From NCBI GenBank assembly GCA_001767435.1, contig MEKT01000237.1, positions 1-55,660 on the forward strand: a stretch of DNA of 55,660 nucleotides, written 5' to 3'. The notes under the pieces are model-generated. The model was not told the origin of the DNA, did not search any database, and saw only the letters and a list, made by a program, of their open reading frames with translations. Source of the stretch: Acidobacteria bacterium RIFCSPLOWO2_02_FULL_65_29. GTDB taxonomy: Bacteria; Acidobacteriota; Vicinamibacteria; Vicinamibacterales; CAVVIG01. The translations under genes and the position numbers were made by a program. Below, one piece after another: positions 6,538 to 55,660 of the stretch; within the stretch, counting starts at the first letter, position 1; every line of letters starts with the position of its first letter.

Positions 6538-6596
6538 GTTAGAGTTTCCGTTAGAGTCCTTCTAACTTCTCACTTCTAAGTTCTAACTTCTTGATC
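6538..6596. repeat. Short-word repeat between the RHH/PIN module and dinB-like gene
   Basis: The words gttagag, ctaactt and cacttctaag recur in both orientations (gttagag at the left, ttctaacttct... at the right). No gene fits here. It is one of several spacers in the window filled by its own short repeated word. Confidence 0.45.
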
Positions 6597-20627: not shown

Positions 20628-20670
20628 ATAGAAGCTGGAGCAGCGTTGCACTTCGGAGTCGCGTCGCTCA

Positions 20671-20748
20671 CAGTGAACAGTTCACAGTCGACAGGTCATC
20701 GACGCCGTCGATCCGTCCTGTCAACTGTGAACTGTCAACTGTCAGCTG
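20671..20748. repeat. Hairpin array of AACTGTCAACTGT-type words (copy A1)
   Basis: The left arm (cagtgaacagttcacag...) is built of 7-10 base words such as gaacag, ttcacagtc and gacag; the right arm (20718-20748) is made of their reverse complements (ctgtcaactgtgaactgtc...). A 23-base loop lies between. The 331-base spacer 20588-20918 otherwise contains the Phd/PIN promoter and a GCTACAATG box at 20856, but no gene. Copies occur at 27964, 31628 and 49316. Confidence 0.7.
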
Positions 20749-27948: not shown

Positions 27949-27963
27949 ATCGGGGGACCTTCG

Positions 27964-28050
27964 TTGACAGTCAACAGTTCACAGTCAACAGTTCACAGTC
28001 AACAGTTGACCTTGAGAGAGAATGGCGACTGTCAACTGTCGACTGTCGAC
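27964..28050. repeat. Hairpin array of AACTGTCAACTGT-type words (copy A2)
   Basis: The left arm (27964-28010) has three repeats of a 16-base unit of the kind cagtcaacagttcaca, and the right arm (28026-28050) reads actgtcaactgtcgactgtc, its complement. It fills most of the 130-base spacer between divergent mutS and tsaB, so both promoters must lie in or around it. GTCGAC and TTGACAGTCAA words resemble -35 boxes. Confidence 0.75.
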
Positions 28051-28078
28051 TTCGGAGCCGCTGCCTGTAGTGTAACCG

Positions 28079-38223: not shown

Positions 38224-38313
38224 GGATTTGAGGATTTGAGAAGTTGAGGATTTGAGAAGTTGAGGATTTGGGAAGTTGAGGATTTGGGAAGTTGAGAATC
38301 TGAGGATGTTGAG
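38224..38313. repeat. 16-bp tandem array (copy B1)
   Basis: Four units of 16 bases of the kind aggatttgagaagttg (38231-38294; the last two with g for a at position 9) follow the guaA stop, with degenerate words at the ends. It fills nearly all of the spacer before dnaE. Related arrays are at 44762-44962 and 54975-55217. Confidence 0.8.
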
Positions 38314-43062: not shown

Positions 43063-44808
43063 GTGATCCCGCCCCGATGGGAGACCCTCGCCTTTGATGA
43101 GGCCGCGGCGAGCCAACTCGCTTCGGCGCTGGGCCTCTCGCCGATCGTGGCGCGCTTGCTGTGCCAGCGCGGGCTCGGCGATCCTGAGGCGGCCGCGCGC
43201 TTCCTGAATCCATCGCTCGATCAGCTGCACGATCCGATGGGCCTGGCCGACATGCGCCCGGCCGTCGATCGGCTCATGGCCGCGGTAGCCCGGCGCGAGC
43301 GGATTGCCGTACACGGCGATTACGACGTCGACGGCATCACGTCCACGGTGATCCTGCGGCGGGCGCTGGACCTGCTGGGCGCCGACGTCGTGCACTTCAT
43401 TCCCGAGCGCATGACGGACGGCTACGGGCTGCAGCGGTCAGCGATCGAGCGGCTTCACGCCGACGGCGTCTCGCTCGTCGTGTCGGTGGACTGCGGCATC
43501 CGTGGCGCCGACGCCGCGCGCCGGGCGCGCGAACTGGGCGTCGATCTGATCATCACCGACCACCACGAGCCCGATGCCGAGCTTCCACCGGCGCTCGCCG
43601 TGATCAACCCGAAGCGGCGCGACTGCTCGTACCCCGACAAGCATCTGGCCGGCGTTGGCGTGGCGCTGAAGCTCGTGCAGGCGCTGTGCCGCGAGGCCGG
43701 CCGGGAGAGCTGGCTGCCGGGTTTCGTGAAAGTCGCTGCCATCGGCACATTGGCGGACGTGGTGCCGCTCATCGGCGAGAATCGCGTCATCGCCAAGCTC
43801 GGCCTCGACCTGTTGTCGCGCGGGCCCCACAAGGTCGGGCTTCGCGCGCTCCTCGACGTGGCGGGGCTCGCGGGAAAGACGATCGACAGCTACCACATCT
43901 CGTTCATGGTCGCGCCGCGCGTGAACGCCGCCGGACGCATGAGCACGCCCGACATCGCCACGCGGCTGCTGCTCGCCAGCGACGAGACTCAGGCGGACGA
44001 GGCGCGTGCGCTGGCTCTTCAACTGGACAGCGAGAACGTGCGGCGCCGGGAGGAGGAAGCCAGTATCCTCGCGGCGGCTCGAACCATCATCCAGACCGAT
44101 CCGGCGGTCGGCGCGCGGTCGGTGCTCGTCGTGGCGGGCGAAGGATGGCATCGCGGCGTCATCGGCATCGTCGCCTCGAAACTGGTGGACGCGTTTCATC
44201 GTCCGGCGATCGTGCTGTCGGTCGACGGAGACGTCGCGCACGGGTCGTGCCGGAGCATCCCGCAGTTCGACATACTCGCGGCGCTCGAGCGCTCGGCGGG
44301 TCTGATGATTCGATTCGGCGGCCACAAGCAGGCGGCCGGGCTCACGATCGAGTCGTCCCGCATCCGCGAGCTGCGGACGGCCGTCAACGATGTCGCCGAC
44401 GAGTCGCTCGGCCCCGAGGACCTCATGCCGTGTTTGCGCATCGACAGCGACCTGGGGTTTCGAGGCATCACGAGCGGCGTGGCCGCGGGCGTGGCGTCGC
44501 TGGCGCCGTTTGGCGCCGGCAACCCTCGGCCAGTGTTCGCGGCCCGGCGCGTCGAGTTGGTCGACGGCCCCCGCACGCTGAAGGAACGCCATCTCAAGAT
44601 GGCCCTCAAGCAGGACGGCCGCATCTTCAGAGCCATCGCGTGGCGCGCCGCCGAACGCCACGACTTCATCGCCGAGCACCGGGCGGCTCTCGACGTCGCC
44701 TTCTCGCTCGAGCAGAACCAGTACAATGGGGAGACATACGTGGAGCTCACGCTAGCTGACGTGAGGAGATCCGAGGATTTGAGGAGATCCGAGGATTTGA
44801 GGAGTTGA
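43063..44808 (+). CDS. recJ: Single-strand DNA exonuclease RecJ
   Basis: The 581-residue protein has the RecJ DHH phosphoesterase motifs: VHGDYDVDGITSTVILRRAL, VVSVDCGIRG, LIITDHHEPDAELPPALAV and the DHHA1 part with RFGGHKQAAGLTIE. It degrades single-stranded DNA 5 prime to 3 prime in recombination and base-excision repair with manganese. The OB-fold end is followed by VRRSEDLRRSEDLRS, which is encoded by the 16-bp-type repeat array, so the native C terminus has been replaced or extended by repeat sequence. The GTG start is at 43063. Confidence 0.95.
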   Translation: MIPPRWETLAFDEAAASQLASALGLSPIVARLLCQRGLGDPEAAARFLNPSLDQLHDPMGLADMRPAVDRLMAAVARRERIAVHGDYDVDGITSTVILRRALDLLGADVVHFIPERMTDGYGLQRSAIERLHADGVSLVVSVDCGIRGADAARRARELGVDLIITDHHEPDAELPPALAVINPKRRDCSYPDKHLAGVGVALKLVQALCREAGRESWLPGFVKVAAIGTLADVVPLIGENRVIAKLGLDLLSRGPHKVGLRALLDVAGLAGKTIDSYHISFMVAPRVNAAGRMSTPDIATRLLLASDETQADEARALALQLDSENVRRREEEASILAAARTIIQTDPAVGARSVLVVAGEGWHRGVIGIVASKLVDAFHRPAIVLSVDGDVAHGSCRSIPQFDILAALERSAGLMIRFGGHKQAAGLTIESSRIRELRTAVNDVADESLGPEDLMPCLRIDSDLGFRGITSGVAAGVASLAPFGAGNPRPVFAARRVELVDGPRTLKERHLKMALKQDGRIFRAIAWRAAERHDFIAEHRAALDVAFSLEQNQYNGETYVELTLADVRRSEDLRRSEDLRS

Positions 44809-44962
44809 GGATTTGAGGAGTTGAGGATTTGGCGTCAGGAATTGAGGATGTGAGAATCTAGCGAGGCGGTGCGCACGGCCGCCAAGTGCGCTAAATCCTC
44901 AGATTCTCCAAATCCTCAGATTCTCTAAATCCTCAGATTCTCAAGTCCTCAAATCCTCAAGT
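44762..44962. repeat. Opposed 16/17-bp arrays forming a large inverted repeat (copy B2)
   Basis: The left arm (44762-44858) is built of aggagttgaggatttg-like units, including a pair of 18-base variants inside the recJ end. The right arm (44892-44962) has units of the kind aaatcctcagattctc with 17-base spacing, the reverse complement. A 33-base GC-rich loop lies between. The transcript could form a long stem between recJ and the lptC gene. Confidence 0.8.
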
Positions 44963-49310: not shown

Positions 49311-49315
49311 CGCGC

Positions 49316-49415
49316 TCGACAGCGAGTCGACAGTCGACAGTTCACCGTCAACAGAGGAAAGCCGGTCGAACTGTCAACTGGGGACTGTCAACTGTGAACT
49401 GACCGACTGTCGATG
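49316..49415. repeat. Hairpin array of AACTGTCAACTGT-type words (copy A4)
   Basis: The left arm (49316-49354) has tcgacagtcgacagttcacc and gtcaacag; after a 16-base loop the right arm reads ctgtcaactggggactgtca and on to 49415. It begins 6 bases after the rpoN stop and ends 24 bases before hpf, so it may mark the end of the lpt-rpoN transcript or control hpf. Confidence 0.7.
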
Positions 49416-49438
49416 TCCAAGATAGCTGAGAGCTGATC

Positions 49439-54602: not shown

Positions 54603-54953
54603 GTGAGCGATATTCCGCGAGTCGACAAGCCGTGGGGGTACGAGCTGCACTGGGCGAAAACCGACCGCTACGTGGGCAAGCTGATCCACGTGAACGCCGG
54701 CCACGCACTGAGCCTGCAGTACCACAACATCAAGGACGAAACCATCTATCTGCATTCCGGGCTGCTGCTCTTCGAGATTCAGGAGGGCGACACGCTCGTC
54801 AGGCGCGACATGCGCCCCGGCGAGCGGGTTCACATCACGGCGAAGACCATCCATCGGATGACGGCCCTCGAAGACAGCGACATCTTCGAGGTCTCGACAC
54901 CCGAACTGCACGATGTCGTGCGGCTGGAGGACAGATACGGGAGGAAGACCTAA
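54603..54953 (+). CDS. Cupin-domain protein, mannose-6-phosphate-isomerase type II-like
   Basis: The 116-residue product from the GTG at 54603 is a single cupin: KPWGYELHWAKTDRYVGKLI, then HALSLQYHNIKDETIYLHSG with His and Glu ligands, and GERVHITAKTIHRMTALEDS with the second-motif His. This is the domain found at the end of mannose-1-phosphate guanylyltransferase/isomerase proteins, here alone. It may isomerise or bind a sugar phosphate. It is separated from ptsI by repeats and may be part of the same transcript. Confidence 0.8.
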   Translation: MSDIPRVDKPWGYELHWAKTDRYVGKLIHVNAGHALSLQYHNIKDETIYLHSGLLLFEIQEGDTLVRRDMRPGERVHITAKTIHRMTALEDSDIFEVSTPELHDVVRLEDRYGRKT

Positions 54954-54974
54954 CCGGCTGGGAAGTGGAATTTG

Positions 54975-55217
54975 AGGATTTGAGGAATGGAGGATTTGAG
55001 GAATGGAGGATTTGAGGAATGGAGGATTTGAGGAATTCAGGATTTGAGGAATGGAGGATTTGAGGAATGGAGGATTTGAGGAATTCAGGATTTGAGGAAT
55101 TCAGGATTTAACGTCAAGAGCCCACACCGCGTCGGCGTCAAGGATCTGTCGCGTTTAACGCAGCGTGACTCGCTCCTGATTCCAAATCCTCACATTCTCA
55201 AATTCTCAAATCCTCAA
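54975..55217. repeat. Eight-unit 16-bp array with an opposed right arm (copy B3)
   Basis: Eight exact-length units (54975-55102) alternate between aggatttgaggaatgg and aggatttgaggaattc, then break off in aggattta. After about 70 unique bases, 55180-55217 reads ccaaatcctcacattctcaa and more, the reverse complement of the unit. It fills the gap between the cupin gene and the convergent ssb gene. Confidence 0.85.
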
Positions 55218-55227
55218 TCTTGCGGGT

Positions 55228-55660
55228 TCAGAACGGGATGTCGTCGTCGGTCAGGGCCTCGGTCGATTCCACCGGCGCCGCGTGGGCCACGCCCTCGCCG
55301 CGGTCCGCACCGCGGCCGCCACCGCCGCCGAGCAACGTGATCCGATCGACTCGCACGTCGACTCGCGTGTCGACGTACGGGGGCGCCTCATGGCTGCACT
55401 TCGGGCACCGCATCGGCTCCCGGCTGTTCGGGCGAAAATCGCGGTCGGGGAAGAACCCATCGCATTGACGACACCGAGGGACCTTGCGGCTCTGGAGTCG
55501 GCCCTCGACGTAGATCTGTTTCCCCTTGGTGAGGTACTCCTTCAACGACTCGGCCTGTTTGCCCCACAGATCGATATTGTGCCACTCGGTGCGCTCTTGC
55601 GGCCCGCCCGACTTGTCCGTCCACTTTTCCGTGGTGGCCATGCTGAACTTTGCGATGGCC
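55228..55660 (-). CDS. ssb: Single-stranded DNA-binding protein with a zinc-ribbon insertion (N terminus cut by window edge)
   Basis: The frame is open to the right edge; the visible part begins AIAKFSMATTEKWTD and so lacks about 35 N-terminal residues. The OB-fold strands ERTEWHNIDLWGKQAESLKE, KGKQIYVEGRLQSRK and VDVRVDRITLLGG are normal, and the tail ends in the SSB signature DDDIPF. Between the second and third of these strands, in place of the L45 loop, is a 35-residue insertion with CRQC and, 19 residues on, CPKC, a four-cysteine zinc ribbon (55378-55482). The protein coats single-stranded DNA in replication and repair. The insertion may alter DNA or partner binding. Confidence 0.92.
   Translation of the reverse strand, partial: AIAKFSMATTEKWTDKSGGPQERTEWHNIDLWGKQAESLKEYLTKGKQIYVEGRLQSRKVPRCRQCDGFFPDRDFRPNSREPMRCPKCSHEAPPYVDTRVDVRVDRITLLGGGGGRGADRGEGVAHAAPVESTEALTDDDIPF

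Follow-up and report, generated by a model that had tools for sequence, protein, structure and literature searches.

A pair of opposed tandem arrays fills the cupin-ssb junction

The window analysed here is a stretch of 55,660 nucleotides, positions 1 to 55,660 of contig MEKT01000237.1 from Acidobacteria bacterium RIFCSPLOWO2_02_FULL_65_29 (GCA_001767435.1). In it, the space between a cupin gene and a convergent ssb gene is filled by an inverted pair of tandem arrays, laid out as follows.

54603-54953, + strand: gene on the left, with a cupin / mannose-6-phosphate isomerase C-terminal domain; its stop codon precedes the array by 16 nt
54970-55109, + strand: left arm, TTGAGGAT family, 8-bp unit in 16-bp dimers; outer terminus GGA at 54967-54969
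55110-55182, no strand: core separating the arms
55183-55217, - strand: right arm, TTGAGGAT family, opposed to the left arm
55228-55641, - strand: gene on the right, encoding single-strand DNA-binding protein (ssb) and convergent with cupin

A reading of the sequence alone had described this array as having an exact 16-bp period, and TRF indeed reports period 16 for 54974-55109, with 8.5 copies, 95% matches and no indels; the basic unit, however, is the 8-bp TTGAGGAT, neighbouring units differ pairwise (TGAGGATT / TGAGGAAT), and period 16 reflects a local dimer; most of the other genomic copies have period 8. The two 16-mer variants, said to alternate, follow one another as g g g c g g c c, which is not strict alternation. 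The opposed block noted about 70 bases on lies 73 bases away, and the pairing of arms is borne out as anatomy. The period had also suggested a binding array for a protein reading 1.5 turns (16 bp), to which we give next to no credence: the 16-bp period is found in the 54970-55109 array alone, unit number varies freely, and sister families with 7-bp units show the same placement and polarity. Because 7- and 8-bp families behave alike, 1.5-turn binding is not supported.

The window holds further arrays and pairs.

6559-6591, no strand: CTTCTAA (AGAAGTT family) heptamer array, intergenic
20668-20748, no strand: GTCAACAGG/CTGTCAA heptamer arrays, intergenic
27963-28051, no strand: inverted pair, GTTGACA/CGACTGT heptamer family, divergent genes on either side
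38224-38313, + strand: single-arm TTGAGGAT array filling the guaA-dnaE junction; begins 5 nt past the guaA stop
44762-44858, + strand: left arm of a second TTGAGGAT pair; recJ reading frame ends within it
44859-44892, no strand: core of that pair (recJ / lptC-like)
44893-44960, - strand: right arm of that pair, 20 nt before the lptC-like gene
49311-49438, no strand: inverted pair, GTTGACA/CGACTGT heptamer family, codirectional genes on either side

Both TTGAGGAT occurrences that the sequence-only reading had listed elsewhere, at 38224-38313 and 44762-44962, are real, the second being an inverted pair and the first a single arm. Searching for further copies of the 13-mer GAGGATTTGAGGA gave 41 in the window with at most two mismatches against 0.87 expected from shuffles (47x), and 862 in the whole genome with at most one mismatch against 33 for the reversed control, so that an absence of further copies is excluded.

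Many array families share placement and polarity

We surveyed 1.59 Mb of the genome, sampling 904 intergenic regions, with genes called by a custom simple codon model whose calls are approximate and whose starts are uncertain. At least a dozen array families with units of 7 or 8 bp were found, including, besides TTGAGGAT, AATTAAG, GTTGACA, TTAGTCG, CACGAAGA, AGAAGTT, TCAGCTA, TTCAGAG, GGGCAAA, GGGTAATT, ATTGCAGG and others. A tandem arm with an inverted partner was present in 92 of the 904 regions (~10%) in a family-blind count, and single arms were frequent. Arrays stood at both borders in 91 regions where 36.5 were expected, and 73 of these 91 carried the same family at both borders against 10.3 expected, although regions with a common family are not independent and p-values of these counts overstate the support; since both counts exceed expectation, we regard paired arms as real units.

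The arms face each other. In both-border regions of 12 families the left arm was + in 99 cases and - in 2, and the right arm - in 98 and + in 7; the outward sense of each family had been fixed in a previous inspection of these data and families were picked by frequency, so these figures measure consistency within families and are not an independent prediction. The block order '+-' was seen in 14/14 TTGAGGAT pairs, 11/11 AAGAATT and 14/14 GACAGTT pairs. The median distance of TTGAGGAT arms from the gene border is 9 nt (57 nt for random placement), and the arms have in common the outer terminus [GC]GA|ATTTGAGG.

Many arrays begin in the last codons of a gene and provide its stop. At 3' borders, the gene's TAG lies within the array for 16 of 21 TTAGTCG arrays, and in 12 of 39 TTGAGGAT arrays the first TGAGGA comes exactly 10 nt after a TGA stop. 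In the window (44745-44808) the recJ frame ends within an array, the last RecJ residues thus being encoded by the repeat, and in several relatives the stop at this junction likewise falls within an array. As a general cause of polarity, stop codons in the unit were rejected on inspection, several units having none outward or one inward.

Orthologous junctions are empty, filled or differently filled

The guaA-dnaE junction was compared in 19 genomes of the same taxonomic family in which the two genes adjoin, with classes assigned by eye and 'empty or short' taken as at most 22 nt between gene landmarks: 8 were empty or short, 10 had arrays, made of several unrelated units, and 1 had a plain hairpin. 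In genus g6 one junction is empty and the other filled; in genus g17 two are empty and one is filled. By eye, the recJ-lptC and cupin-ssb junctions of relatives give the same picture, being empty or holding other families, and at the cupin-ssb junction of three g17 genomes the GGGTAATT unit is common while arm lengths and loops differ. These comparisons show that arrays are gained and lost at the level of the genus, that units persist within a genus and that cores turn over fast, which may explain why most cores of different loci are unrelated.

The expansion proposed from the sequence alone is supported by these data, unit number varying among loci and among orthologous copies inside one genus. 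It is supported as well by a longer element with GTTGACA arms, found in three copies with shared outer flanks (L056:9755, L114:12321, L125:16077), two of which differ by 14 bp, that is, two repeat units. An assembly artefact is unlikely because independently assembled genomes show arrays of the same kind at the same junctions. In one genome (G002, L288) the contig end on the downstream side of the cupin gene falls within an array; such arrays may therefore break assemblies.

Comparison of arms showed that those within one locus are no more alike than arms of separate loci, and recent arm-to-arm copying or gene conversion is thus not supported. Core homology is mostly absent between loci. The window core (55110-55182) has a 21-bp exact match (E 7.5e-4, whole genome) and a collinear 20-bp match to the core of another TTGAGGAT pair, C23:1884-1936. 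Terminal inverted repeats are present, as in the definition of MITEs; no consistent target-site duplication was seen by eye in the inverted-pair sequences.

Arrays of this kind could also arise by ordinary local slippage, in which 7-8 bp repeats grow in place, with no movement, wherever coding constraint is absent, as has been proposed for long heptamer repeats. Merged loci with period 7 or 8 are indeed frequent in intergenic and rare in coding DNA (99 vs 8), dimer patterns are locus-specific, and the lack of closer likeness between arms of one locus agrees with growth in place. We nevertheless find this account improbable: the same dozen units, with their shared termini, occur at loci that are not linked, inverted pairs of a single family are far above expectation and polarity is fixed, and orthologous junctions with an ATGA overlap are empty in some genera.

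Hairpin folding and a possible role at transcript 3' ends

Compared with shuffles, RNA from the window pair shows better folding whichever strand is read (z -2.4 and -5.1), and at the cupin-ssb junction hairpins with z <= -2.4 on both strands are found in 11 of 13 foldable genomes despite differing sequences. Such folding fits a 3'-end hairpin that is kept and is also expected if every insertion is a hairpin. The former would make the arrays selected 3'-end structures, long intergenic hairpins that stop or insulate transcription both ways and whose sequence is free, so that the unit is lineage-specific; with a purine-rich 5' arm and a pyrimidine-rich 3' arm, the RNA-DNA hybrid would be weak at the point of hairpin formation. 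Besides the folding, placement and composition speak for this explanation: arrays lie on 26% of gene 3' borders vs 14% of 5' borders, pairs occur in 17% of convergent regions vs 7-11% of other regions, and the left arm is purine-rich in 76 vs 15 of the family-blind pairs. However, single arms unable to fold are common at codirectional junctions, the left arm is purine-poor in some families, and structure alone does not need one family to recur at many loci. None of 20 convergent pair regions scored as an intrinsic terminator (GC hairpin plus U tract), and because canonical terminators are rare with or without arrays, replacement of terminators by arrays cannot be shown. On balance we think it unlikely that 3'-end selection accounts for the arrays. 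A search for known RNA families gave none at the arrays.

Searches for an enzyme or carrier

No mobilising enzyme was found when the genome was searched for Y1 and RVT_1. Y1 transposase (RAYT; PF01797) is not detectable in this 97% complete genome, controls being positive, and a REP/RAYT origin was rejected on that ground; REPIN structure was likewise rejected, the termini [GC]GA|ATTTGAGG and tandem units not being a GTAG/CGTC-tagged palindrome. The only RVT_1 match (L244, C152:719-1342, a 546-aa frame) resembles, on inspection by eye, the reverse transcriptase/maturase of a group II intron, and a telomerase-like reverse transcriptase was rejected on this ground. Plasmid carriage was discarded as well, no match having been found.

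The RVT_1 result also speaks against telomere-like repeat addition to broken DNA ends followed by joining, whereby 3' ends extended outward with one and the same repeat would leave opposed arrays at the gene borders. Such addition would account for the outward, mostly G-rich polarity on both sides, the like polarity of single-border arrays and the same family on both sides, and bacterial enzymes that make tandem-repeat DNA exist (DRT10, PMC12632851). DRT10, however, is protein-primed and not chromosome-primed, a dozen different units would require a dozen templates, and core sequence is common to separate loci, so that we judge repeat addition very improbable.

Proposed foldback-like insertions with slippage-prone arms

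We favour, with the scales about evenly balanced, a reading of the arrays as foldback-like insertions with slippage-prone arms, non-coding and situated at gene borders. Families are dispersed, polarity is kept, arrays stand where relatives are empty, and copy number changes. In a complete copy, a short variable core lies between two opposed arms built from one 7-9 bp tandem unit. The recurrence of families and the termini they share show that copies of a family have spread through the genome, presumably by whole-element movement with a moving enzyme. Copies would survive where harmless, at gene borders and above all just past or within stop codons; after insertion, arms would grow and shrink by slippage, and cores and single arms would be lost or replaced. 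The polarity rule, with a left arm that is mostly purine- and G-rich, would belong to the ends of the element. Where genes converge, the hairpin may in addition be retained as a 3'-end structure that works in both directions. Against foldback insertion stand the mostly non-homologous cores, the lack of a duplication by eye, the lack of a detectable Y1/RAYT, an RVT_1 match that looks like a group II intron enzyme, and the frequent single arms; moreover, polarity is kept also in regions whose two borders bear different families, a pattern not expected of a simple element whose arms are equal. Possible, though rather unlikely, is a broad and unnamed class of bacterial foldback elements with an interchangeable 7-9 bp arm unit and fixed polarity. 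At a given gene junction the hairpin would either last or arise afresh from another unit in each lineage, and a so far undescribed process, adding short tandem repeats from gene borders outward, would make and move the elements.

Relation to known repeats

The closest precedent for these foldback-like arrays is the GGGAATC heptamer pairs of Xanthomonas (Rehm et al. 2015, PMC4692102), intergenic tandem arrays for which G-quadruplexes were discussed and which form 70-75 convergent pairs per genome, one array per strand, with long arrays at different genes in two species. The present arrays are likewise tandem, mainly intergenic and paired convergently on opposite strands. Rehm et al. studied one G4-forming family per genome, with only a few pairs in Nostoc (PMC4692102), whereas here at least a dozen families coexist, octamers included; TTGAGGAT has only GG and most other families also lack G3. 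A similar arrangement is described only for that one heptamer in Xanthomonas, and what is new here is the many families, the one polarity rule and the repeated independent insertion at orthologous junctions; that such junctions are found empty or with other fillings goes beyond the Xanthomonas study. Since families mostly without G-runs have the same geometry, G4 formation is not its general cause; one rule of polarity and placement over a dozen unrelated units, together with repeated independent gain, likewise means that particular regulators cannot be the general explanation. An excess of heptamers between bacterial genes, known since 2007, has no accepted cause (as cited in PMC4692102), and its cause becomes testable through empty versus filled sites.

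TAACTGA repeats (MacGregor 2015, PMC4679880), direct repeats just upstream of starts in Beggiatoaceae, Cyanobacteria and Bacteroidetes, are also genome-dispersed intergenic heptamer arrays common to distant phyla but, unlike the present pairs, are nearly without inverted copies. Drosophila Foldback and Galileo (PMC3573991, PMC4168063) have long inverted arms, internal tandem repeats of variable number and a variable middle, a likeness of architecture only: they are eukaryotic and much larger, and Galileo has a P-type transposase. REP/REPIN-RAYT sequences (PMC3733652) are dispersed intergenic hairpins close to gene ends, too, but they are palindromes of 20-40 bp, tagged by GTAG or CGTC and lacking tandem units. 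Separately, 165 intergenic regions of the 1.59-Mb sample are linked by BLAST similarity (e.g. L040:6922, L040:7682), and the examples inspected carry a palindromic REP-like repeat, GGCAGGACTGAAGTCCTGCACTACA, of which the window holds none.

Related arrays extend beyond this genome. Among the matches listed for the 25-mer (GAGGATTT)3G are many Bacteroidota and some Verrucomicrobia, Gemmatales and Thiomargarita records, and in 16 of the 17 listed cases with an opposed partner within 200 bp the partner lies downstream. Of 119 genomes from the phylum, 11 contain CACGAAGACACGAAG, and in two of these (G079 and G113) the listed close pairs have the same polarity.
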